Shown here: piece by piece, positions 29,191 through 64,000 of the stretch
How the letters are laid out: each line of letters starts with the position of its first letter
Position numbering within the stretch: position 1 is the first letter of the stretch
Origin: Cerioporus squamosus
Taxonomy: Eukaryota > Basidiomycota > Agaricomycetes > Polyporales > Polyporaceae
Assembly (NCBI GenBank): GCA_022592435.1
Contig: JABYQS010000162.1
Location: forward strand, 16,676-80,675
Direction of reading: 5' to 3'
DNA length: 64,000 nucleotides
The notes under the pieces: generated by a model
What the model was told of the DNA's origin: nothing
Databases searched by the model: none
The model's input: the letters and a program-made list of their open reading frames with translations, nothing else
Program-made: the position numbers and the translations under genes

Positions 29191-30027
29191 ATGGGCAACC
29201 CGACAGTAGAGCTCGTATATGCTCCTGCTATGGAACTCGTTCGCCAGGACCCGCACAACAGGGACGTCGTGGCGGCTCCTTTCTCGGTCCTCAAGGCGCA
29301 GGATGGACTTATCAAGTGCATACGTCTCTGTCACGGTCTTGTCCAAGTGTTCCAATATACTAACAATTGGCACTGTGTTCCCTGCGACAGGATCTACTAC
29401 GGGGTCCAGCACGAGGACAAAGCGACGGCATACCATATCATAGGTAGCGTCGTGAACCATGCTGCGATCGCATATGCAGGGACTGACTCGACCTTTCCTG
29501 TCTCATCACGAAGTATGGGAATCATACGAGCATCACAAGAAGCTCATGGACGACACCACGACCTACCCGAAACTGACGGGTTCTGTCGCGTCCGTCTTTG
29601 ACAAATCCAAAGGCCCGGTCACGATGCTGCACATCAACACCACCAACGAGCCCTACAAGGCCTTTGAGGCCCCCGTGGTCGAAATCGCGACCTTCACTCT
29701 CCAGGAGGGTCAGTCCAAATCCGAGCTCGAGGCGCACGTCAAGACCCTCGTGGACGCGGTGAATACCAAGACGGAGGCAGACGGCGTCTTCCACGCTTCG
29801 TGGGGTCCGGTGAGGGAGAACGACAACGCCTTCGTGGTATTCATCGGCTGGACTACCGTCGACGTACGTTTCTTGCGGCGGATCGGTATCGGAAACTGAC
29901 CAGCGGTTGCGATACGCAGGCGCATTGGGGTCTCGTGAAGAACGATCCCGGAGCGATTGACCTCATCGGCAAGTGCAAGGCCATCGCCGACGTCGCGGTT
30001 GTTCACGTCCCATTGGCTCTGTACTGA
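29191..30027 (+). CDS. Dimeric alpha/beta-barrel (ABM-like) protein, paralogue 1
   Basis: Four exons encode about 200 residues starting MGNPTVELVYAPAMELVRQD. The first half is LKAQDGLIK joined to IYYGVQHEDKATAYHII and VWESYEHHKKLMDD, which is the strand-helix pattern of an antibiotic-biosynthesis-monooxygenase-type ferredoxin-like fold with the W-E-S-x-x-x-H-H segment. The second half has KAFEAPVVEIATFTLQEGQS, FHASWGPVRENDNAFVVFIG and a last exon ending VAVVHVPLALY. It therefore looks like two fused half-barrels. No cofactor or catalytic residue is evident. The same exon structure is repeated in the copies at 30573 and 38125. Confidence 0.75.
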
Positions 30028-30572: not shown

Positions 30573-31400
30573 ATGCCGACTGTTGAGCTAGTACATGCTC
30601 CTGCTTCGGAGGCGATTCTTCGGGACCCGCACAACAAGGACGCAGCCTTGGCAAATACGATCGCCATCCTCAAGGCACAGGATGGCATGATCAAGTGCGT
30701 AGTCTGATGTCAATTCATCGAGGTCTTGAGCATTGATCATCGGTCCCCATTCCTGCAGATTATATCACGGAGTTCAGCACGAGGACAAGGCGACAGCGTA
30801 CCTCCTCGTCGGTGAGGGTCGACAACTTTTGAACATTGATGCGATGAAGCTGACTCATGTTCTCATCTTCTATAGTATGGGAGTCCTATGAGCACCATGA
30901 GAAGCTCATCAACGATGCGGAGACCTATCCCAAGCTGACAGGCGGCATCACCTCTTTGTTCGATCTCGCGAAGGGCCCGCTTACGATGGTACACGTCAAC
31001 TCCACGAGCGAGCCCTACAAGGCGTTCGAGGCTCCTGTTGCGGAGATCGCGACATTCACGCTGCATGAGGGAAAGTCCAAGTCCGAGCTCGAGGAGCTCG
31101 TGGACAGCCTGGCGAAGCACCTCGCAGAGGTGGTGAGGACCAAAGCCGAGGAGGCTAGCGTCTTCCACGCTTCGTGGGGCCCGGTGAGGGAGAAGGACAA
31201 CGTCTTGGTGCTCTTCATCGGCTGGACCAGCGTCGCTGTGAGTCTATTCTCCAATGATTGTGCATGTTGTTGTCTTCTGATCAGTCACACAGGCGCACTG
31301 GGACGTGGTAAAGGGCGACGCTGGGTCGGGTGAATTCATCGGCAAGCTCAGGGCTATCGCCGACGTTTCGGTCATCCACGTTCCGTTGGATTTGGACTGA
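30573..31400 (+). CDS. Dimeric alpha/beta-barrel (ABM-like) protein, paralogue 2
   Basis: It starts MPTVELVHAPASEAILRDPH and has the same four-exon plan as paralogue 1: YHGVQHEDKATAYLLV, VWESYEHHEKLINDAETYPK, then EPYKAFEAPVAEIATFTLHE, FHASWGPVREKDNVLVLFIG and a final exon ending VSVIHVPLDLD. Intron positions and phases are conserved, so this is a tandem duplicate of the gene 550 bp upstream. The function is unknown. Hydrophilic length differences (an extra AKHLAEVVR segment) are in a loop. Confidence 0.75.
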
Positions 31401-48670: not shown

Positions 48671-50222
48671 ATGGCTGCAGGTGTTCTTCAACTCTTGCAC
48701 AGTGTCGCAGCAGAGCTCCACGACCCCACATGTCACAACGTTCAAGGTAAGCCGTAGACAACTACGACAGCCTTATCATTTCCTCGCTGACAGCAAGGTT
48801 CACAGAGTTGCTTCTTTGCGACCGGGGCAGTGCGGAAACCCTCTTACAGGCCAGCACGTCCCTCACCGGAACACCTGCTCCGCAACAACTGGATGACACG
48901 CGATCCTCCCTCGTCGAGACTGTGCAGCGGGCCCATAAATATATGGCCTCCTCTGGGGCTGACGGAAGCCGCGGATGGAGAAGAATCTACACCGACGCAT
49001 GCCTGCTCTTAGCGTTCGGTGACATACTCGACTTCTTGTCCTCTGGGGAGAAAGCGCTCGCGTACTCAGCCGTGTCGCGCCTCGACCACGCCATCGTGAT
49101 TGCAGGCGCGCCCGGCGAAGGAAGGATGGACTTGCTTCTCGACTTGATCGCTGGTGTGCAGTCAGAATGCTTTGACATCCAGCGTGACAACCCACCGGTA
49201 CAGCAGACCACTGTTCGTCGTCTTGCACGCACCATAGATGTCGGCCTCCCTAGCGCCATGCAGGGCGTTCCTCATCTCGACAAACCGCCTTCTTTGTCCG
49301 CGTTCGTCTCTCGCTTCTCTCAGCATCCATTCGTTCTCCCCAACTTCCTCTCGGACTGGCCTGCCCTCAACGAGCATCCCTGGAGTTCCCTGGACTACCT
49401 ACGAGAGGTAGCGGGACCTGGTCGTGTGGTTCCAGTTGAAGTAGGAGGGGATTACAGAAGCGACGACTGGACGCAGCGGATGATGCCCTGGGATGAGTTC
49501 CTCTCCAGCCTCGGGGAACAGCATCCGGGGGAGTCGTCCAAGCCAGTTCTGTACCTGGCACAGCATAGCCTATTCAAGCAGTTCCCCGCGCTCAAAGACG
49601 ACATCTACGTACCCGACTATGCGTACTCTGACTTGGACCCGCCGGACAACTATCCGCAATACGTGCCGCCAGCGAGTGAAGAGCGCCTTGTCCTGAATGC
49701 TTGGCTCGGCCCTGCAGGGACCGTCTCCCCTGCCCACACAGTACGTGATTGAGAAGCTCGTGCGCGACAATCTGATTATGATGGCGTTTCAGGACCCGTT
49801 CTACAACTTCTATGGTGCGGGATGCATGTCTCTGCGTTGATGTCCATGCTGACGTCTGTGCAGGACAAGTAGTCGGGCGGAAAACGGTATGGCTCGCACC
49901 ACCAGAGGCTTCTCTCCACATGTACCCCTACCCTTCGCACTCTTCGACTACATCGTCCGAAGGCAGCGCAGACCAGCCCCGGAATCCCGCTGTGAACAAC
50001 GAGAGCCCGTCCATGAGCAACACCTCTCAGGTGGACGTCTTCATTTCGGCTCCCGGAGACATCGACGCGAGCAAATCGGCTTACCCCGACTTTTGGAGCC
50101 ATGCAGTACCTTCCGCCATGTCTGTCACACTCGAACCGGGTGATCTCTTGTTCTTTCCGCCTGGGTGGTGGCATGCCATGCGCAGCGAGGAGACGAGCTT
50201 CTCGGTATCAATGTGGTTTTGA
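48671..50222 (+). CDS. JmjC-domain protein, KDM8/JMJD5-like 2-oxoglutarate oxygenase
   Basis: Exon 1 encodes MAAGVLQLLHSVAAELHDPT and joins in phase to ELLLCDRGSAETLL. A helical N-terminal region (TDACLLLAFGDILDFLSSGE, ALAYSAVSRLDHAIVIAGAP) precedes the JmjC core: PFVLPNFLSDWPALNEHPWS, VPVEVGGDYRSDDWTQRMMP, YLAQHSLFKQFPALKDDIYV. The iron ligands are His and Asp in AHTDPFYNFY (made across two short introns) and the distal His in FFPPGWWHAMRSEE. All three are present, so it should be an active Fe(II) enzyme. The arrangement matches the JMJD5 group, whose members hydroxylate arginine or clip histone tails. A Ser-rich insertion interrupts the barrel between the two halves. The substrate is unknown. 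Confidence 0.88.
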
Positions 50223-52814: not shown

Positions 52815-53279
52815 TTGTGCCGCCTGTATTTTCTTGTCCTTCTTGGTTGTAGACTATCGGCTGCTCTCTGCTATCGTTGTGTTCCTCTATACATAAATCG
52901 CAACGTCTTGTACTCCAGTTCCACATGGGGTGCATGTACTGTCGGGAGGCGTTCGTGGTCTGTCCATTGACCATGGTGTGAGCTCCTGTAAGCGTACGGC
53001 TGATCTCCGGCAGCGGCTCAAGATCACGATATGAATTCGAGTTCACAGACACAAACATGTGGAGTCGCAGTACTGTAGACTAGTTTTCCACCCGTGGCTT
53101 TGCCCCGTGGCGCGTGAGCCTTCGGCTCATCGTTACGTTGCTTCGCCTGCGGCTCAGTGTGCAATAAGTATCTATTTCATTGAAGGGAACTTAGTGAATT
53201 CGTTGGCAGTAAGCCCCGTAGCTGCCCCCGTGAGCCTTTGAACACTTCAATGATCATGATTTCACCTAGACCTTGAATG
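52815..53279. other. Region between SPF45 and the older Copia LTR
   Basis: No gene is supported. Near 53117-53131 there is a perfect 6-bp hairpin (TGAGCC, TTC, GGCTCA). Somewhere between here and 53332 lies the unresolved outer edge of the minus-strand Copia LTR. Confidence 0.4.
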
Positions 53280-53332
53280 GTTGAGGCAAGCTGAGTAAGT
53301 AGGTGACAGGATCTGAGCCGGCGCGAGGGAGA

Positions 53333-53399
53333 CTGAAGACAAAGGAATGTATTCTCAGCGTTCCGGGAAGAGAACGATGATGTAGCGTAGCGTAGATAC
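53333..53399 (-). other. Putative 67-nt intron 2 in the minus-strand LTR leader, made of linker plus spliced A'-B' copy
   Basis: It starts GTATCT right after the first B' and ends at the second B' in a strong acceptor (CATTCCTTTGTCTTCAG). If spliced with intron 1, the leader becomes A'-B' followed by TCTCCC, which is the same sequence as is already present downstream in the LTR. Confidence 0.5.
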
Positions 53400-53420
53400 C
53401 TGAAGACAAAGGAATGTATT

Positions 53421-53474
53421 CTACTGGTGCATGAGCAAAGGGAAACGACGGCAGACATGGGAAAGGAAGCTCAC
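53421..53474 (-). other. Putative 54-nt intron 1 in the minus-strand LTR leader
   Basis: Read on the minus strand, it begins GTGAGC after CGCTGAG and ends CACCAGTAG before AATAC. The same flanks occur joined without it at 53353/53354. Length and consensus match the introns of genes in this window. Confidence 0.75.
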
Positions 53475-53679
53475 CTCAGCGTTCCGGGAAGAGAACGATG
53501 AGGGGAGCTCTACACGACGGGAGTTTTAGAAGACTGTTTGCGAGCTATCGATGGAGTACGTAAGCTAAAGATCTGTATCTAAGAGTGCGTACGGAATGCG
53601 AGCGGAAGCACGAGAGGCAAGGGCGCTTTGACCAACGGAAAAGGAATACGAGACGCCGTCGAGACGGCCGACTACAACA

Positions 53680-53701
53680 CGCCCCCTCAAAGCGGCCGAA
53701 G
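53680..53701 (-). mobile_element. Severed 3' end of the minus-strand Copia body: last codons, stop and polypurine tract
   Basis: Read on the minus strand, the sequence after the target duplication gives the last codons and a TGA (53689-53687), overlapping the polypurine tract GAGGGGGCG that abuts the LTR. It is separated from the rest of the pol gene by the 6.5-kb nested insertion. Confidence 0.85.
53697..53701 (+). repeat. Target site duplication CGAAG, left copy
   Basis: Five bases CGAAG immediately before the TG of the inserted Copia element. The same five occur right after its final CA at 60158-60162. Confidence 0.95.
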
Positions 53702-53967
53702 TGTTGAACTTACTATGGACATTAGTTGCGCATTAGGCGCTATGGGCACAGCCTCTTACGATTAGATCTAAGGCTATGCTTCTTCCTTTCCTTTTAGGGT
53801 ACGTTGTACGAAACCATGTGGTTACCTGGCTTCTCTTTGTTTCCAGTCCATTCCAGTGCGTTCTGCAACGCTCCGGACCTTTCTAGTTCTTTCTAGATAT
53901 CTCTGGGCTGTACTAGACATGCCCTTGTGACCTCGTATTTGTCGTATCTTCGTCATCCTTCGTCATC

Positions 53968-54000
53968 GTCTGAGTCATCCCTACTCGTTCTGACTCAGAC
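53968..54000. promoter_or_regulatory. Paired Gcn4/AP-1-type sites in U3 (10-bp inverted repeat)
   Basis: GTCTGAGTCA and TGACTCAGAC form a perfect 10-bp inverted repeat with a 13-nt spacer, 50-82 nt before the TATA box. Each arm contains the bZIP consensus TGA(C/G)TCA. Gcn4-type factors respond to amino-acid starvation and bind such sites in yeast Ty1 promoters. Function here is inferred. Confidence 0.6.
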
Positions 54001-54049
54001 AGCATTATGCTCTCCTTTCTGTCGCTTACTCATGCTACTCCAGACACAG

Positions 54050-54057
54050 TATATAAG
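54050..54057 (+). promoter_or_regulatory. TATA box of the Copia LTR promoter
   Basis: TATATAAG, about 30 nt before the start of the leader hairpin and exon A (54080-54084). Transcription should start near 54080. The same box occurs in the right LTR at 59913-59920. Confidence 0.8.
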
Positions 54058-54079
54058 GAGGGACTCTTGGGCTTCGTCT

Positions 54080-54107
54080 CCTCAGTCTTTTGCTCTACTG
54101 ACTGAGG
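54080..54107 (+). other. Leader hairpin next to the splice donor
   Basis: CCTCAGTC (54080-54087) and GACTGAGG (54100-54107) form an 8-bp perfect stem with a 12-nt loop that ends one base before the G of GTAAGT. In the second, spliced copy only AGTC remains of the left arm. The structure could affect splice-site access or packaging; that is inference. Confidence 0.5.
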
Positions 54108-54108
54108 A

Positions 54109-54162
54109 GTAAGTACTCGCCTACCTATGCTTACTTATGCTTTACTTACAAGTACTTTGTAG
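54109..54162 (+). other. Putative 54-nt intron 1 in the LTR leader
   Basis: It begins GTAAGT, the best possible donor, and ends ACTTTGTAG. Its flanks, 25 nt on each side (54084-54108 and 54163-54187), recur directly joined at 54208-54257. The same arrangement is at 59972-60025 in the right LTR. Confidence 0.75.
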
Positions 54163-54187
54163 CTCGTGTTGTCCACTCGTCTGCTAG

Positions 54188-54257
54188 GTACTTGTGTCTA
54201 TGCTATTAGTCTTTTGCTCTACTGACTGAGGACTCGTGTTGTCCACTCGTCTGCTAG
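54188..54257 (+). other. Putative 70-nt intron 2 in the LTR leader, made of linker plus spliced A-B copy
   Basis: It begins GTACTT after the first B and ends CTGCTAG, with a branch-point-like CTGAC in the middle. Removing it along with intron 1 gives A-B followed by TCGTTGCG, identical to the sequence already present downstream from 54208. Confidence 0.5.
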
Positions 54258-54294
54258 TCGTTGCGACTTGCCTTCACAGGTTCAGACTTCATCA

Positions 54295-54311
54295 GGTTAT
54301 GAGCCCTGCGC
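54295..54311 (+). other. Primer-binding site matching the anticodon arm of initiator tRNA-Met (half-tRNA primer)
   Basis: GGTTATGAGCCCTGCGC starts at the base after the LTR. Its reverse complement contains GGGCUCAUAACC, the anticodon stem-loop of fungal initiator tRNA-Met with the CAU anticodon, rather than the tRNA 3' end. Drosophila copia and yeast Ty5 use such cleaved half-tRNAs. Confidence 0.85.
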
Positions 54312-54815: not shown

Positions 54816-57800
54816 GTGGCCTCTACAGACTTCAACTGTAGAAATCTCTTCCACCGATACGACACAACTGACACTCGAGACGTCTGCTGGCTAGAAGACG
54901 AACGTCTCTTTCAAGACTGCGACGACCAACCGTGTCCTAACCGGTTCAACGAGGTTGCCAAACCTGACAACTGTGCATACCCTCATCGTCGTTACATCGA
55001 ACCTGCTTCTGGCCAAGACTGTTGTCCTCTTACCTCAGGATCAGAAGATCAGTCTGAAGAAGACGATCATCTACCATCACCACAACTCCCTCCTGCTCAA
55101 TCTCCTGTTCTACCGGTCGAAGAAGTTCTTCCATCCCCTGAAGTTCTTCCTGTCACTCTCCCATCTCCGTCTCCAGATTCTATCCCTCTCCCTGCACCTT
55201 CAGACACTCCCTATCCTACACCGATCCCATCCGCTCCACCAACTCCTGTCGTAACACTTCCTGCACTACCACCTCTTCTCGATAACACACCAGAACCGAC
55301 TGACTACTCGTATCTCTTTGCGATGTCGGAAGCCGGTCTTGAGAAGACCCTGCCTCAACTCAGAGGTCAGGAAGGATACAAGGAGTGGGCTCGTCAGATG
55401 AAGAGTTATCTGATGATGATTGATGCTTGGGATGTCGTCAGTGGGAGTGTTGCACGTCCTACTCCAGCTGCTGATGGCAGAAATGCCGAAGAAGTGAAGG
55501 CCTGGGGAAAGACGGACAATCGGGCGCAAGGTATCCTCATGTACAAGACTAGTGCTGAGGTGTCCAAGTGCTTCGAAGGGAAGAAGACCGCTAAGGAGAT
55601 CTGGGACGCCTTGAAGGCTACGTACGAGAAGTCGGACAACGGGTACTCCTTCTCCCGGTTCGAACATCTTCTCAACTACCCTTGGTTTGACGAGAGCAAG
55701 TCAATCGTCGACCAGGTGCAGACCTTCATTGGGCTCCTGGATGAGTTAACGGCCAACAGCACGAACACCCTCGCCAACCACATCAAGGTCTTCTGGCTCT
55801 TCTCGAAGATGCCTGACTCGTACCGACCCGCGATCTCCACCATCCTACACACTACCAAGGAGTCTGACCTAACCCTCGAGACGGTCAAGCCCAAGCTCAA
55901 GCTTGAGGACTCCTTGCGTGGGACGTCGATTGGTCAGGCGCACAAGATCTCGAAGCCGAAGCCGAGACCTAGACCTCCTTGCACCCACTGCGGCAAGGAC
56001 AACCATGACTCTTCTAACTGCTACAAGAAGTTCCCGGAGAAGAATCCGCGGAACAAGAAGAAGAGCAAGGACTCTGGCAAGGGTGGTAACGAGGCTGGCA
56101 AAGGCAATGGGAATTCGAACGGACATAACCATGCGCATACTATCTCTACTATCTCCTCTCTTGTACCTGTAGCGAACATCGCAAACGAGCTCTCCGTTTC
56201 TTTCTACAGCGCAGCTGATGCTGCTGAGGGACGCGTCGAGACAATCTGGCTCATGGATTCTGGTGCATCGTCACATGTCACCGGAATCATGTCTGACTTC
56301 ACCAACTATCGTGAGTACACGCAACCTAAGTACTTCAGGACTGCTCAGGATGGTCAAGCGGGTCAGATTGCCTGTCTCGGTGAAGGTACAATTGTGGGAT
56401 ACTCCCTGGTGGATGGAGAGCGAGTCAAAGTCACTCTCAACGACGTCTGCTATATCCCTGCAGCGGGCGAGCAGCGACTCTTCTCCACTGGGATGATTGA
56501 GCGCAAGGGTTCGTTCATCTATCAAGGTGATGGACTTATGAGCATCTTCGACTCAAGGCCTAAGGGCCGAGTCACTTCCGGCTCGACGGTTGAGATCAAG
56601 GGTCGAAAGGTCCTTCAAGGTACCTATATCCCTATGATCAATCTCTATCTCTTCCCTCTCATCGTCGAAGGGAAGAAGACTTCTGGCGATCTTGATGCTG
56701 CATCCCGTGTCCTCGACCATGACTTAGTGCATCGTCGATGGGGTCATCCAGGCAAAGAAGCTGTCAAGCATCTGCCTGATGCGACCACTGGCATGGACGG
56801 CATTGGTCCTCCCTCTGACAAACCCTGCGAAGGTTGTGCGAAGGGCAAGATGACTCGTCGTCCCTTTCCTCCTTCTGAGAAGCGTGCTACAGTCGTTCTC
56901 GCTCTCGTCCACATGGACATTGCAGGACCTCTTGGCACATCGATCGGTGGCTTCAACTACTTCTGTGTCTTCGTCGATGACTGCTCCGGTCTGGCTGCCG
57001 TTTATGCTCTCAAGCGGAAGTCTGATCAGGAGGAAGCCTTCAGACAGTTCAAGTCTTGGGCTGAGAACCAGACGGAGCACAAGATCAAGAAAGTACGTTC
57101 CGATCGAGGGGGGGAGTACATGTCCGACTCGTTCCAAGCCATGCTTCGTGAATTTGGGATTGAGCATGATAAGACAATGCCAGGAACGTCTCAGCAGAAT
57201 GGACGAGCTGAACGCTTCATCCGTACGATCTCTGAGAAGGCTCTATGCATGCTCCACTTTGCTGGCCTTTCTCATGGATTCTGGAAGCTCGCTCTTGATG
57301 CTGCCGTTCACATCTATAACCGTCAGCCGATGAGACGACTTAAGTGGGAGTGCCCCATCACCATCTGGACCGGCAGCAAGCCGGACGTCTCCTACTTCCG
57401 GGTGTTTGGGTGCAAAGCCTACGTACACGTGCAGAAAGACAAACGTCAAGGGAAGCTCGACCAGAAGGCCGTCGAGAGGACGTTTGTGGGCTATGAGCCG
57501 GGTTCAAAGGGGTATCGCCTATGGAACCCGACCACCCGTCAAGTCGAAGTATCTCGCGATGTGATCTTCGATGAGACCGTATTTCCTGCACGTGCAGACA
57601 CCGGCACTCGTCGAGCTACCCCCGACGACAGTCCGTTCCCCGATTACCAGCCACCTGAGGAACCTTCCGACGGTGATGCTGACCTTCCTGTTCCTGATCG
57701 TCTCGACGACGATTCAGATGACGCTCCTCCTCCAGTTCCTCCTCCCGTTCCTCCTGCAGACCCTGCTCCAGCTCCTCCACCTGCTCCAGAGCCGCAGCAA

Positions 57801-59553
57801 CCGCAGCAGCCTGAGCAACCACCACCTGCTCCTCATCCGCAAGCTCCTCGTCACCAACGGCGTCGTCATCCACCTGAGGGTGGAAACACTCCTCCTCTTC
57901 GCTCTCCTCGAGAGAACAAGGGGAAGATGCCAGAACGTCACACCAGAGATAACGTCTACGGTGATGAACCTCCCGCTCAAGTAGATGCACGTACAGATAA
58001 GGACGGTGATCAGCGTGAAGCAGAAGCAATCCTAGCCTCTCTCTTCTATTCGCGGTATAAGTCTGGCATTCCTGAGCATCATAAGGACGCCATGGCTTCA
58101 CCAGATCGTGAGCATTGGATTGCGGCTGAACGTTCGGAGTATGAGTCTCTCATGGCGAACAAGACTTGGGTCTTGGTTCCTCGTCCGAAGGACCGATCCG
58201 TTGTCTCATGTCGCTGGGTCTATGATCGTAAATCAGACGGTCGCTACAAAGCACGTCTGGTTGCACGAGGCTTTACGCAAGTCTATGGGAAGGACTACCA
58301 CGAAACCTTCTCTCCTGTCGCTCGATTCGAGTCTATCCGGTATCTCTTGGCGCACGCTGCCCTAAAGGACTGGGAGATCGATGCGATGGACGTTAAGACT
58401 GCGTTCCTCAACGGGGACTTGGACGAGGAGGTCTACATGGAACAACCCGAGGGCTGGGTCGTGAAAGGCAAAGAGGACTACGTTTGTCTGCTTAAGAAGG
58501 CCATCTACGGTCTTAAGCAAGCCTCTCGCCAATGGAACAAGAAGATTCACGAATCGCTCATCGGACAGGGATTTGTTCGGACATACTCTGATGCCGGAGT
58601 CTATGTATATCGCCGACAAGGGGGGGATTCAGACCCAGACCGTGTCACGATTATTGTCCTCTATGTCGACGACCTACTTCTCATGGGTGACAGTCGAGGG
58701 CATATCGACAAGGTCAAGAAGGCGCTTGGCAAGCAGTATAAGATGACGGACTTGGGTCCTATTCAGCGATTCCTTGGTCTTTGTATACGTCGAGATCGTC
58801 TCTCACGGACACTTGACATCGACCAGGAAGAGTACATCGAGGCCATTCTCGAGAACTATCAGATGGCCAGCTGCAAGCCTGCGCGTACTCCTCTCCCTGC
58901 TGGTGCAGTTATCGAAGCTGCTACCACAGAAGCACCGGCGAAGTTGCGTCAGCGTTTCCAGAGCTTGATGGGCAGTCTTCTCTATGCCTGTCTTGGGACG
59001 CGACCAGATATCTCGTATGCCATCAACCGTCTGGGCAAGTACAGTGCGAACCCTGCCGACGATCACCTTGATAGACTTCTCTATGTCTTAATCCGATTCA
59101 GACTGGGCAGAAGACCGCGACGATCGGCATTCGCAGACCGCTTTCGTCTTCCTGATGGCAGGAGGTGCTGTGTCTTGGGCATCTCGACGTCAACAGACCG
59201 TCTCTCTCTCATCCACTGAGGCAGAGTACAAGGCGGCCTCAGACACTGCTCGTCAGATGATGTGGCTTAGGACGTTTGGCGATGAGTTAGGGGATGACAT
59301 GGGCTCGGCTACGCCGATGTGCGTCGACAACCATGGTGCTATTCACCTTGCGTTGAACCCAGCCATCGACCGGTGTTGTAAGCACGTCGAGACGCACTAC
59401 CACTTCGTACGCGAATATGCCGAGACTCCAAACATGGACATCTATGCTATTCCTAGTGAGGAGAATCTGGCAGATCCGTTGACCAAGAATGCTTCACTGC
59501 ACGTCATGGAGTACTTCGTGGCAAATTCGGGTCTTGTTACCTCCGCGTCTTGA
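54816..59553 (+). CDS. Copia gag-pol polyprotein with RNase H deletion/frameshift
   Basis: One frame of 1,467 codons runs 54816-59219; the true RNase H tail continues in another frame to 59553. Order: acidic and Pro-rich N-terminus; gag (UBN2-like, EGYKEWARQMKSYLMMIDAW); CCHC knuckle (CTHCGKDNHDSSNCYKKFP); protease WLMDSGASSHVTG; HHCC integrase zinc region (VHRRWGHPGKEAVKHL ... CEGCAKGK); integrase core VHMDIAGP, RSDRGGEY and NGRAER; a Pro/Gln-rich hinge; RT with FTQVYGKDYHETFSPVAR, MDVKTAFLNGDLDEEVYMEQ and YVDD. After LDRLLYVL (about 59090) roughly 25-30 expected residues are missing and the frame changes. RNase H then resumes with SDSDWAEDRDDRHSQ, SLSSTEAEYKA and CVDNHGAIHLAL. A shorter gag start at MSEAGLEKTL (55323) is possible. 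Confidence 0.9.
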
Positions 59554-59564: not shown

Positions 59565-60157
59565 TGTTGAACTTACTATGGACATTAGTTGCGCATTAGG
59601 CGCTATGGGCACAGCCTCTTACGATTAGATCTAAGGCTATGCTTCTTCCTTTCCTTTTAGGGTACGTTGTACGAAACCATGTGGTTACCTGGCTTCTCTT
59701 TGTTTCCAGTCCATTCCAGTGCGTTCTGCAACGCTCCGGACCTTTCTAGTTCTTTCTAGATATCTCTGGGCTGTACTAGACATGCCCTTGTGACCTCGTA
59801 TTTGTCGTATCTTCGTCATCCTTCGTCATCGTCTGAGTCATCCCTACTCGTTCTGACTCAGACAGCATTATGCTCTCCTTTCTGTCGCTTACTCATGCTA
59901 CTCCAGACACAGTATATAAGGAGGGACTCTTGGGCTTCGTCTCCTCAGTCTTTTGCTCTACTGACTGAGGAGTAAGTACTCGCCTACCTATGCTTACTTA
60001 TGCTTTACTTACAAGTACTTTGTAGCTCGTGTTGTCCACTCGTCTGCTAGGTACTTGTGTCTATGCTATTAGTCTTTTGCTCTACTGACTGAGGACTCGT
60101 GTTGTCCACTCGTCTGCTAGTCGTTGCGACTTGCCTTCACAGGTTCAGACTTCATCA
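59565..60157 (+). repeat. Right LTR of the intact Copia element
   Basis: This direct repeat of 53702-54294 is offset by exactly 5,863 bp, and I found no difference by eye. It carries the same TATA box, 54-nt intron, and spliced A-B copy (60071-60120). Confidence 0.95.
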
Positions 60158-60162
60158 CGAAG
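60158..60162 (+). repeat. Target site duplication CGAAG, right copy
   Basis: CGAAG directly follows the final CA of the right LTR and equals 53697-53701. On the minus strand it is the CTTCG that encodes part of the last codons of the older element's pol. Confidence 0.95.
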
Positions 60163-63100
60163 CCCAAAGAGTGGAGTGAGGTGCTCGAGCTTGGCACGAG
60201 GCAGAGCCTTCGTGAACAAGTCGGCTGGCATGTCCTCTGTGCGTCGATATGCCAGGGTGATGCGGTTGTCGTCGACTGCCTCGCGGATGAAATGAAAACG
60301 TATATCTATGTGCTTTGTGCGGGGGTGGTAAGTATTGTCCTTGGCAAGTGCCATAGCAGAACGGTTATCAGTATGTAGAAGAACAGGGTGCTGTGCGATA
60401 TCGGGGTGAAGAATGTCTGTAAGAACATACTGGAGCCAAATGGCTTCCTTGGCGGCGTGCGTCAACGCGATGTACTCGGCCTCGGTGCTAGAGAGCGCGA
60501 CCACGTTTTGCTTCTTTGCTGACCAGGAGACGGCGCCCCCACTAATTGTGAAGACGTAGCCGCTAATCGAGTGGCGATGCTCGGTCGAGGAGCCCCAGTC
60601 GGCGTCCGAGAAGCCGAGGAGCCCATCGTTGGTGCCACCATAGACGAGCCAGTGATCACGCGTGCCTTTCAGGTAGCGGATGACGCGTTTGAGCGCGTCC
60701 CAGTGCGCGTGTCCCGGGTTTTGCATGAACTGGGCGAGGGTGGTAACAGCGAAGGCAATGTCAGGGCGCGTGCCCATAGCGGCGTACATGAGCGAGCCGA
60801 CGGCCTCTCGGTACGGGACATTGCGCATGTCCTCGAATTGGCGCGGAGTGGACGGGCACTGGGAGGACGAGAGGACGGCGCCGGGCTGTAGAGGAGTGGA
60901 CAGTGGAGTGGCGTTCTCGAGATTGTAGCGAGCGGCGATGGAGTCGATGTACGCGCGCTGGGAAATGGCAATGGTCCCAGCCGCAGGGTCGTGCCTGACC
61001 TCGATACCGAGGTACCAGTGCAAATCGCCGCGATCTGACAGCTCGAAACACTTGTCCATAGCGTTCTCGAACTCGTCGACGAGGGTGGGGGTTCCAACGA
61101 TGAGGAAGTCGTCGACCGCGGTCGCGACCTCGAGATGTCCGTCCTCCGAGTGCTTGAAGAACACAGTGTGATCGGAGACGCACCTGTCCAACCCCATCTC
61201 ACCCACAGCCCCTGTCAACGTCTTGTACCACCCCCTCCCCGCCTGCTTCAGCCCGTACAACGTCTTCTTCAGCCTGCACACGAGGTGCTCCTCGCCGGGG
61301 CGCGCGCTGCCGGGTGGCTGCCTCATATAGATGGTCTCCTCGAGTTCCCCGTTGAGGTACGCGGACTTGACGTCGAGTTGCCGGACCTTCCAGCCGTAGC
61401 GAGCAGCGAGGGCAATCAGAGTGCGGATAGACGAGAGTTTGGCGACAGGAGCGAATGTCTCGTTGTAGTCCTGCCCAGGGACTTGTGTGAACCCTTGAGC
61501 GACCAGTCGAGCCTTGAATTGCTTGACTTGGCCTTCAGCGTCGCGTTTGATGCGGAAGACGAAGCGCGAGCCGACGATGTTGACGTTGGGCGGTGGCTCG
61601 ACGAGCTCGTAGGTGTCGTGGTCGCGGAGGTTGGCGAGCTCGGCGTTGACCGCGGCTTGCCACTGCTCACGATCAGGTGACTGCAGCGCCTCTTCGAGCG
61701 TCCTCGGCTCCTGGCCTGCTAGCATCGCAAACGCGTAGACTGGCTCTTGCTGAACTTCATCGTCGCTGGCTGGTCCCTCGACATCTACCAACTCCGGCAG
61801 GTCCCAGTCGTCATCGGCCTCCTCAGCTGCAGCGACCGCGCCCATCAACTCCGACGGCTTCAAGCCCTTCGGATAGCGCGACGCGCCTCCTCGACGTCCG
61901 GTCGCGGTCCCTTCTCCCCTTTCCAGACGCCTCACGTACTCCGACGGCTTCCGGATACGGTGGCCACGGCCTAGCAGCGGCTCTGGAGCAGCAGCTTCCT
62001 CGACCACTGGCGCATCTTCCACAGTCGCGGGAGGAACACGACCGGGAGACGGCGGCGGAGATGGATTGGTGGGCGGCGCAGGCTCGGGATGGACGTGCGT
62101 TGAGCTCGATGACTCGGTGAGTGGTTCTCGCGAGGTTTCGGACGCGTTGGGGAGCTCTGGAGACGACTCGGTGGGTTCGGAGGTCGCGGGCGCAGGAGCA
62201 GACGGCGCGGACTGTCCGCCAATCTCCCTCCTCGCCCCCTCGGACTGGACGTCGTCGGCTGCGACTTCCGGTTCGCCATCCTCGACGAACATGACGTTCC
62301 GCTCGACGGTGACGTTCCGGGAGTCGGGCCAATACACACGGTACCCCTTGCTGTGGTCGGAGTACCCGACGAAGCGACCTTCGCGGGCCTTCGACTGCAT
62401 CTTCGGGGCATTCTCTTTGCGTACCCAGACCTTCGCACCGAATTGGTGCAGGTCACGGAGGTCGGGGACCTCTCCGAAGCGAGCCTCGTACGGTGTCTTG
62501 CCGTCGAGTGCTCGTGTGGCCGTCCGGTTCTTGAGCCAGGTCGCGTGGAGGATGGCATAGCTCCAGAGGAATTGGGCAGGCCCGACGCGATCAGCATCGC
62601 TCGGGCGTGTTCTGCAAGTGTCCGATTCACCCTCTCGGCTACGCCGTTCTCCTCCGGCGTGTCGTGGACCGACGTGCGATGGCGTGTTCCCTCTGACTTG
62701 AGGAACACCTCGAACTCCTCGCTGCAGAACTCCCCGCCGTTGTCGGTCTGGAGTTCCTTGACCCGACGCCCTTCCTGTGTCCAGAGATCAGCCACTAACT
62801 CTTTATAGGCTTTGAAGGCTCGATCCTTGGTCTTCGCCGGCACCGTCTTGGTCCAGCGCGTGGCGTCATCGGTCCACATCGTCGCGTGCTTGTTCCCACC
62901 TAGCAACGCGCAGCCTGCGCTCCAGGTATCGGCGTAATCCGGTCGCCGTACTTCTGGCAGGTCGCTCGCGCGTTCCTTCGGGACAGGTGCGCGCGCGATC
63001 TTCGCCTGGACGCAGACCTCACAGATCTCGTCGGTGGAGCCTCCCGTGAGCTTCACACCGCGGATGCGACCCTGCTCGACCATCCTCTTTGCCACAGCGG

Positions 63101-64000
63101 GAGAGATGTGTCCAAGTCGAGCGTGCAGCTCTTGCAGGGTGTACGTAGCCTCGGGCTTGCTGCCCGAATTGGCAGCGGTCCGACTACGGCAGGGTGACGG
63201 ACTTGATAAAGTCCGTTCGAAGATGGGATCCGGCCAATCGTCTTGCCCGTGTCGCGGGAGAACAGCCGACACTCGCCACGCTCGAACACGGTGGAGTAGC
63301 CGGCCTCGTCGGCTCGTCGAATCGACACTAGCCCGAAGGCCATGTCGGGCGCATGGAGTACGCGTTCGAGCGTCACGGCGGTGCTCGTCACCGTTCGGCA
63401 TCTCGACGCGGACACTTCCTTCGCCACAGCCATGAACGACCGCCCGTCGGCTGGTGTGATAGGTCTCGGAGGTTTGAGTTCCGAGTAGGAGGTGAAGCGG
63501 TGGCGATAGGGGAACATGTGCCGGCTGGCACCGCTGTCGTAGACCTCGACCTCCTCGGATGGGGAAGCAGCGCACGCAAAGACCGAGCTGTCAAGCGTGA
63601 TCGCAAACGCGTGTTCGCCGTCATCCTTTACAGCGTTCGCGACGCACCGCCTCCACCTCCGCCTTGTCCGCCGCGACCTCGATTCTTCGGCATCTGGTCG
63701 GGTCCTTGTCCCTCCTTCCCGCCGCCCTTCCGCCAGCAATCGGCCTTGACGTGTCCCCTGCGCTTGCAGTTGTAGCACTCAGGGCCGCTCTTCGACTTGC
63801 TGTTGCCGTTCCGAGACCCACTGCGCGAGCCGAACTTCTGCGGCGGACCACCAGCAGAGAGGGCGGAGTCGTTCGTCGTTTCCTGGTTCGATCGACGGTC
63901 GTACTCCTCAGTGAGGGCCTGAATGACGTCGAGAGGGGACAGAGGGTTGCGTGCAGCGCGCTCGCGGCGATCGACAGAGCCGACAAGACAGCGTCGTAGG
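60158..64000 (-). mobile_element. Older minus-strand Copia element, body (runs off the window)
   Basis: The gag end, protease, integrase, reverse transcriptase and RNase H of a second Copia family are readable on the minus strand from 64000 down to 60158. The element continues with its last codons, polypurine tract and 3' LTR at 53701-53280, beyond the nested insertion. Its 5' LTR and primer site are outside the window. It differs clearly in sequence from the inserted element. Confidence 0.92.
60158..64000 (-). pseudogene. Frameshifted gag-pol of the older Copia element
   Basis: From right to left: CCHC knuckle (CYNCKRRGHVKADCW, near 63735-63775), a frame break near 63640, protease VYDSGASRHMF, a frame break near 63190, LHARLGHISPAVAKRMVEQG and an integrase core with LQTDNGGEF and PEENGVAER. 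There is another break near 62570, where one C seems missing in CTGCCCAATTCC. An intact RT/RNase H frame follows (62400-60158) with ETFAPVAKLSSIRTLIALAA, QLDVKSAYLNGELEETIYMR, an RT centre reading AVDD instead of YVDD, SLMYAAMGTRPDIAFAVTTL and ALSSTEAEYIALTHAAKEAI. The last three codons and stop are cut off by the nested element, so the present frame ends with foreign DEV at 60145. Not functional as it stands. Confidence 0.88.

Follow-up and report, generated by a model that had tools for sequence, protein, structure and literature searches.

Introns in reverse-transcribed sequence should vanish after a single cycle, and retroelements are therefore expected to exclude introns or never to copy the spliced form of their RNA. 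Ordinary long terminal repeats (LTRs) provide one collinear repeat region (R) at both ends of the RNA. In Ngaro elements, a joined A-B copy serves as the template from which the ends are rebuilt. These tyrosine-recombinase retrotransposons carry repeats in the order A-pol-B-A-B, according to the available part of the source (PMC3783388). Among Copia elements, BARE1 of barley has a spliced RNA, with its intron just past gag and the spliced form used for translation, and its authors state, in the available portion of their report, that retrotransposons must keep spliced RNA from packaging and reverse transcription (PMC3735527). Here we describe two Ty1/Copia elements, E1 and E2, one nested in the other at 53.3-63.8 kb of a 64-kb window (the whole stretch of DNA analysed, from contig JABYQS010000162.1 of the fungus Cerioporus squamosus). 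The LTRs of these and related elements hold predicted introns of spliceosomal type together with a ready-spliced copy of the exons. With a probability of roughly three in four, we consider that the spliced RNA is reverse-transcribed, that its strong-stop DNA lands on this copy and that the intron-containing LTR is restored in the process.

The two elements resemble Ty1/Copia in having gag, an integrase before the reverse transcriptase (RT), LTRs bounded by TG..CA, a 5-bp target duplication and a primer site that looks complementary to an internal stretch of methionine transfer RNA (Met-tRNA). They differ from ordinary LTR elements at the RNA ends: the prediction is a spliced 5' end and, at the 3' end, an LTR that is itself unspliced but includes a pre-spliced R. 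The DNA itself displays two alternative R copies, one of which is split by an intron. Unlike BARE1, as far as the available part of that report describes it (PMC3735527), spliced leaders appear here to be the template, and the intron-like segments examined lie in the LTR; E1 is one open frame from gag to RT, and a coding-region intron was not looked for. Ngaro is the nearest logical parallel, with its joined A-B copy beside split A and B, but its whole coding region lies between A and B in the available description (PMC3783388), whereas here a 54-nucleotide (nt) intron lies inside each LTR. Unlike Ngaro and DIRS, E1 has a DDE (rve) integrase core and true LTRs, and no recombinase is found among its Pfam matches.

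Both elements have the same LTR order, U3 (the unique 3' region)-A1-intron (GT..AG, 54 nt)-B1-linker (GTA..)-A2-B2-C, in which A2-B2 equals A1+B1 minus the 54-nt intron. Identity is complete in E1 (A1 to A2, 25/25; B1 to B2, 25/25) and in E2 (27/27 and 21/21, respectively). A first-pass annotation of this DNA had described this split and fused A-B structure and had proposed a second intron, running from the GTA after B1 to the AG at the end of B2. The structure is exact in both LTRs at the positions it gave, and its second-intron intervals (54188-54257, 70 nt; 53399-53333, 67 nt) are right and have GT..AG ends. The parts of the LTRs are listed below in window positions, with a slash at predicted borders.

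53702-54294, plus strand: E1 5' LTR, 593 bp, TG..CA
54050-54058, plus strand: E1 TATA box by sequence, TATATAAGG, with a putative promoter role, 34 nt upstream of A1
54084-54108, plus strand: E1 A1, predicted capped first exon, repeated as A2
54084, plus strand: E1 predicted start site, CTC/AGTC, from TATA spacing and the start of A1/A2 homology
54109-54162, plus strand: E1 predicted intron 1, GTAAGT..CTTAC..TTGTAG, 54 nt, with CTNAY 14 nt before its 3' end
54163-54187, plus strand: E1 B1, predicted second exon, ending TAG/GTA, repeated as B2
54188-54207, plus strand: E1 linker by sequence, GTACTT..
54208-54257, plus strand: E1 predicted landing pad, A2 (54208-54232) and B2 (54233-54257), 50/50 identical to A1+B1
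54188-54257, plus strand: E1 predicted intron 2 (linker+A2+B2), GTACTT..CTGAC..TGCTAG, 70 nt, whose excision would yield A-B-C
54258-54294, plus strand: E1 C by sequence, the LTR remainder up to the primer-binding site
54295-54308, plus strand: E1 primer-binding site GGTTATGAGCCCTG, apparently complementary to the inside of Met-tRNA, with half-tRNA priming as the probable mode
59565-60157, plus strand: E1 3' LTR, with the same A1-intron-B1-linker-A2-B2 by its match to the 5' copy
53304-53679, minus strand: E2 LTR (3'), 376 bp
53475-53501, minus strand: E2 A1 (split-repeat scan), start A predicted at 53499
53421-53474, minus strand: E2 predicted intron 1 (split-repeat scan), GTGAGC..CAGTAG, 54 nt
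53400-53420, minus strand: E2 B1 (split-repeat scan)
53381-53399, minus strand: E2 linker by sequence
53333-53380, minus strand: E2 pre-spliced copy (split-repeat scan), A2 (53354-53380) and B2 (53333-53353)
53333-53399, minus strand: E2 predicted intron 2 by sequence (linker+A2+B2), GTATCT..CTTCAG, 67 nt

The split-repeat scan uses 9-base seeds and the pattern A-GT(40-160)AG-B ... A-B, the GT and AG borders of intron 1 being conditions of the scan. In the window the scan picked out three LTRs, the two of E1 and that of E2, and nothing else. It gave no match in a reversed control of 179,960 bases and none in a Markov-1 control of 5.12 Mb, one strand.

We propose that transcription starts at A1, as suggested by the TATA box, the initiator and the start of the repeat. 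Excision of intron 1, which is well supported, and of intron 2, which is more conjectural, would leave a 5' leader A-B-C, and a Met-tRNA fragment would prime synthesis after C. For E1 this predicts a minus-strong-stop DNA of 87 nt (A 25 + B 25 + C 37) rather than 211 nt. If the RNA 3' end lies beyond A2 and the 3' LTR is unspliced, this DNA would pair with A2-B2-C near that end, because the match there is longer than A1 alone. Synthesis onward through the linker, B1, intron 1, A1 and U3 would regain A1-intron-B1-linker-A2-B2-C. Every cycle would overwrite A2-B2 with a copy of A1+B1, as the covariation described below indirectly supports, and the pad would track the exons as both drift. Landing on A1 instead would give U3-A-B-C. 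This one scheme accounts for the fused order, both borders of the repeat, the covariation and the rare by-products. We also lean, with less assurance, towards a Copia group that replicates mainly via spliced genomic RNA, with introns permanent in R and a 3' pre-spliced R that would be both landing site and product of each cycle.

The genome surveyed is one fungal assembly of 54 Mb in 988 contigs (C numbers below denote its contigs and L numbers loci), and in it the design is present in eight two-intron families and one one-intron family. The two-intron families are E1, E2 (including a diverged C900 copy), C645/C679, C147, C14, C157, C740 and C118; the one-intron family is S1. They were grouped by eye, with no tree behind the grouping, and are compared as ten rows, nine of them two-intron (C900 has its own row) plus S1. 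C118 was found by a scan that required AG/GT at B1, S1 was noticed by eye and the other eight rows come from scans without that condition.

A word across the E1 A2/B2 junction occurs at 97 places genome-wide with at most 2 mismatches. For the census of E1 sites, 88 of 110 loci were used, the rest overlapping these except for the LTR of L101 at C65:68.5 kb, which was left out. The census comprises 90 LTR sites, of which 75 have the full architecture within about 175 bp; three others read U3-AB-linker-AB, four have A-B only (two of them after U3) and eight are truncated or rearranged. Two of the three U3-AB-linker-AB sites, on C65 and C74, carry an additional 70-nt unit, and since they share an identical flank of at least 890 bases they represent one locus in duplicate, the copies being those on C65 and at C74:74.7 kb. 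Two or three A-B units 70 nt apart, with intron 1 missing, are seen in the E1 LTRs at L048/L049/L101 (C65, about 71.1-71.3 kb) and L054/L055/L056/L102 (C74, about 71.8 and 74.7 kb). Either slippage or the landing of incompletely spliced strong-stop DNA may have produced the extra units on C65 and C74.

Stretches downstream of other Copia RT domains were scanned and then read, and the design was seen in 8 of 19: the two-intron form at C645, C679, C147, C14, C157 and C118, and the one-intron S1 at C777 and C147. It was not seen in the other 11, in which the LTR may fall outside the stretch. Upstream of primer sites, inspection of 20 stretches revealed two with the two-intron design (C645, C740), two U3-A-B-C relatives (C147, C679) and five S1, and no such design in the remaining 11. 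One of the five S1 copies has an insertion in the intron and one is deleted; four were recognised by eye, and L145 also by scan. Thus, Copia families with the same primer site and zero, one or two LTR introns coexist in this genome. The S1 layout is X/GTGTGT..X(AG)/C, with X of 23-24 nt (L126, L127, L145, L157 and L160, on C777, C147, C135, C678 and C691). With its single exon X and one intron whose 3' part copies X, S1 seems to represent the design at its simplest.

Both borders of the repeat are conserved. YC precedes A1, and A1 begins with A, in all ten rows. The A1/A2 match starts at this A in seven of them (the window copy of E1, C900, C645, C14, C157, C118, and S1 as L145); in E2, C147 and C740 it begins two bases earlier, at TC, which is also the case in E1 copies with C before A2. 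Reverse transcription of an RNA 5' end would leave just such a repeat, with its start at the cap site. The opposite border has B (X in S1) ending with AG, and B1 followed by GT, in 10/10 rows. The LTR of C14 and C157 ends at B2, where the AG consists of the last LTR base and the first G of the primer site. B1 has that G too, so removal of the segment restores both the LTR end and the primer site. Just before A2 (window 54207), E1 copies have either T or C (28 and 40 of 72, respectively, in the two main linker forms); a C there would fit transcripts beginning one base earlier.

The sequences of A and B are strongly diverged between families, with shared-letter scores for A+B of 0.57-0.79 (0.91 for E2 against C900, and 0.60 for one shuffled pair). 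Within families, A1 equals A2 exactly or with one mismatch (C147), and B1 equals B2 exactly save for one base in a C run (C118) and two substitutions (the C679 copy). In the old C679 copy A2 is without its first two bases, and the homology begins two bases later. The first-pass annotation had called for a comparison of the two A-B copies across element copies, and in the E2 lineages the two do change together. The E2 alignment holds 12 LTRs (two C152 pieces were left out and L121 was read separately). It contains six B variants, in each of which B1 and B2 agree; the match is exact in 10/12 LTRs and the other two have a private indel (a script gives nine, L122 being added after trimming two trailing bases of C). 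For E1, most copies of which are young, A1B1 equals A2B2 in 62 of 72 strict LTRs, 60 of which have the window sequence. In each of the two other equal LTRs, B1 and B2 carry the variant alike, and one of these variants recurs in a third copy that the strict count does not include. The homogenisation of A2-B2 alone argues for the spliced route as the common one. Many of the one-sided A1B1/A2B2 differences in E1 and E2 are of the C/T or G/A type and fall at CpG, the pattern expected when old copies have been methylated at cytosine.

Exact losses of intron 1 were also observed. An E2 insertion on C512 has both LTRs without exactly the 54-nt intron 1, and both retain linker-A2-B2. It is flanked on both sides by the target duplication CAGAC, and its LTRs are one substitution apart. 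The loss, being in both LTRs, arose before or during the cycle that produced this insertion. Intron 1 is likewise exactly absent at three E1 sites, in a line without AG microhomology.

The core of the first-pass annotation, that a spliced leader lands on a pre-spliced copy and that the LTR is rebuilt, is supported, as its predictions hold: A and B covary in E2; the repeat starts at YC/A in 7/10 rows and only TC earlier in the other three; the AG end with GT after the first copy is found in 10/10; intron 1 is lost exactly from both C512 LTRs; and strongly diverged A and B sequences retain the architecture. Its further suggestion, of a mark for RNA that has been through the spliceosome, is not supported, because an unspliced leader would match the 3' LTR equally well and both routes could rebuild the LTR. 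Unspliced RNA could also replicate normally, but A2-B2 would then drift from A1+B1, contrary to what the E2 B segments show.

Intron 1 is 51-56 nt long, with +5G in the donor in 9/9 rows and CTNAY 11-17 nt before the 3' end in 9/9. Its GT..AG ends, branch motif, short fungal-type length and exact loss in copies are those of a probable spliceosomal intron. Intron 2 has GT..AG in 10/10 rows, and its length remains 52-70 nt although the lengths of A and B vary. A single splice from A1 to the A2/B2 border was considered as well and rejected, A2 being without terminal AG in E1, C740 and C118.

A number of observations weigh against the proposed cycle. The donor of intron 2 has +5G in 0/9 two-intron rows (it is present in S1), and the branch motif CTNAY is found in 4/10 rows and in none of the other six, which makes intron 2 the weakest step of the model. 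The model also needs intron 1 of the 3' LTR to be left unspliced in the template RNA, though its signals equal those of the 5' LTR; as a speculation, the weak signals of intron 2 might keep the 3' LTR unspliced. A1 equals A2 exactly in only 5/12 E2 LTRs by reading (the script gives two, the two C512 rows and C900, L122, failing only through alignment or trimming). In the other E2 LTRs the substitutions in A all affect CpG, as C-to-T or G-to-A, and there is one inserted base; the CpG-type changes are expected of old methylated copies. In E1, A1B1 is unequal to A2B2 in 10/72 strict LTRs, five of which differ solely by C/T or G/A at CpG. A few CpG changes confined to B2 or X2 are common to two or three copies in E1 and S1, and strict overwriting should erase them unless they are recurrent; L157 and L160 of S1 are a case in point, their second X having the same one-sided CpG change. 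The C512 loss cannot be produced by deletion between the A and B repeats, but deletion between two AG dinucleotides could produce it. Two of the three E1 losses are one locus in duplicate, and with their common B1 variant all may be one event. On C802, an insertion with target duplication CAATC has a 5' LTR without exactly intron 2 (70 nt) and a 3' LTR that keeps the architecture; this was rejected as proof of splicing, since deletion between direct repeats gives the same. The U3-A-B-C LTRs (C888, C144, C147:11801 and C679:98530) were rejected for a like reason, deletion between A1 and A2 giving the same product. Finally, target duplications match in only 5 of 18 testable E1 LTR pairs, so that the pairings in the other 13 are unsafe, which suggests recombination between elements or misjoined assembly. 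An apparent excess of U3-A-B-C at 5' LTRs was dropped, because the primer-site search detects 5' LTRs only and most E1 pairs are unmatched.

These points must be set against other explanations. Intron 1 might be spliced while linker-A2-B2 is no intron at all, the RT jumping from B2 to the identical B1 to make an A-B-C complementary DNA, with the pad still used and renewed. The weak signals of intron 2 would agree with this, B1 and B2 are perfect direct repeats suited to jumping, and the B-to-B interval does slip, as the 70-nt tandem units on C65 and C74 and the exact loss on C802 indicate. A jump, however, needs neither an AG at the end of B nor a GT after B1, yet both are present in 10/10 rows while the rest of B diverges. 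Also against a jump, the length of intron 2 stays within 52-70 nt, and the LTR end of C14 and C157 falls inside the AG, at the very point where a splice would recreate the primer site. We regard the jump as improbable, though the most serious of the rivals. It is more unlikely still that A2-B2 is the functionless relic of one old capture of a spliced leader, its likeness to A1+B1 stemming from youth or from gene conversion of DNA. E1 copies are nearly identical overall (60/72 equal the window sequence), so that identity in E1 alone is weak evidence, but E2 sublineages and other families differ in B and still have B1 equal to B2 save for private changes; moreover, gene conversion acts poorly on tracts as short as 12-25 bp with unlike sequence on either side, and diverged families retain the same architecture.

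The repeats could instead be promoter or RNA-structure elements, such as a repeated initiator or protein sites, without any splicing. A does lie at the predicted start site, a usual place for downstream promoter elements, but this explanation leaves unaccounted for the +5G donors and branch motifs in 9/9 rows, the fused A-B order and the C512 loss, and we give it very little credence. An artefact of assembly or annotation in a repeat-rich genome is hardly conceivable. Some long repeats may indeed be misjoined, given the 13 of 18 testable E1 LTR pairs with unmatched target duplications, and one E1 locus is present in duplicate; against this, the architecture lies within about 175 bp at 75/90 E1 sites and recurs in other families, and it is found in insertions with matching target duplications (E1 of the window, and C802 in its 3' LTR).

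Foamy virus and the human T-cell leukaemia and bovine leukaemia viruses (HTLV/BLV) have a 5' splice site in R, but the acceptor is far downstream and the spliced RNAs are subgenomic; to our knowledge, none of their introns is contained entirely within the LTR, and they lack a pre-spliced copy. Engineered split-intron retroviral vectors demonstrate that splice signals and end strand transfers can be rearranged by design, and we know of no such vector in which a pre-spliced landing site serves to retain an intron in R. The engineered LTR1 vector, in the available part of its description, omits the first strand transfer (PMC5542766). Searches of open-access papers on LTR introns, spliced templates, DIRS/Ngaro and vectors listed, as far as titles and abstracts show, no LTR with an intron in R plus a pre-spliced copy, in agreement with the first-pass annotation, which knew of no described LTR of this kind. 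The phrase 'intron in the LTR' gave one match there, the name of a vector in the part of the source available (PMC5542766), and the accessible portion of PMC5014426 describes no LTR intron.

If the proposal is true, a pre-spliced match at the RNA 3' end resolves the conflict over intron loss and gives a retroelement a way to keep introns in the reverse-transcribed part of its own genome. The definition of R in LTR elements would change, and there would be an explanation for LTR structures likely to be labelled tandem repeats by annotation tools. It would suggest selection for a promoter-proximal transposon intron, with export, expression and escape from silencing as candidate benefits, and genome sequence would then give a view, in a natural setting, of splicing, strand transfer and repeat homogenisation.

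In the window, E1 is on the plus strand and E2 on the minus strand, E1 having inserted between the 3' LTR and the pol end of E2. Their coding regions are as follows.

54816-59219, plus strand: E1 gag-pol open frame (Copia gag, integrase, RVT_2), from the open reading frame list and domain matches
60163-63778, minus strand: E2 internal region (pol), from the open reading frame list, with RVT_2 at 60886-61617

The single E1 frame carries Pfam matches to Retrotran_gag_2 (195-366), rve (697-791) and RVT_2 (1115-1360). Its stop at 59219 precedes the end of the E1 polymerase region. The integrase upstream of RT, the direct TG..CA LTRs and the short target duplication are those of a Copia element. 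The second copy of the 593-bp LTR lies 5863 bp downstream. The two E1 LTRs match at 595/595 positions, counting two bases from the end of the 5-bp target duplication; this duplication, CGAAG, is present on both sides (53697-53701 and 60158-60162). The RT domains of E1 and E2 are only 39% identical, which places the elements in different families. E2 pol is split across several frames or at least two, and the E1 insertion has taken the place of its end. A protein search with the E1 polymerase yielded 7138 relatives. Among the 120 matches listed, the best named homologues are from Polyporales (Rhodofomes, Trametes, Dichomitus and Ganoderma), with some plant and other fungal names lower down. No relatives in viral contigs were confirmed.

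The 14-mer primer site directly after the LTR is conserved in E1, E2 and other families. A 16-mer, CAGGTTATGAGCCCTG, has 58 exact places in the genome and 64 with at most one mismatch. We take the E1 primer to be Met-tRNA; fly copia and yeast Ty5 are examples of Copia elements primed by a half-tRNA. The assembly yielded no uninterrupted tRNA stretch or gene matching the E1 primer site. Allowing one mismatch to the complement of the E1 primer region, there are six places, unlike element copies, that may be elongator Met-tRNA genes (four on C933 at 126835-138310, and C124:314590 and C348:2732).

Elsewhere in the window, the flank past the E2 LTR end (53240-53303) has 14 further matches at 97-100% and is thus part of another repeat. 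A small gene is tandemly duplicated at 29200-29874 and 30576-31248, about 1.37 kb apart, the copies being 73-78% identical with similar open frames of about 150 amino acids. The open frame at 48808-49752 contains a Cupin_8 domain.

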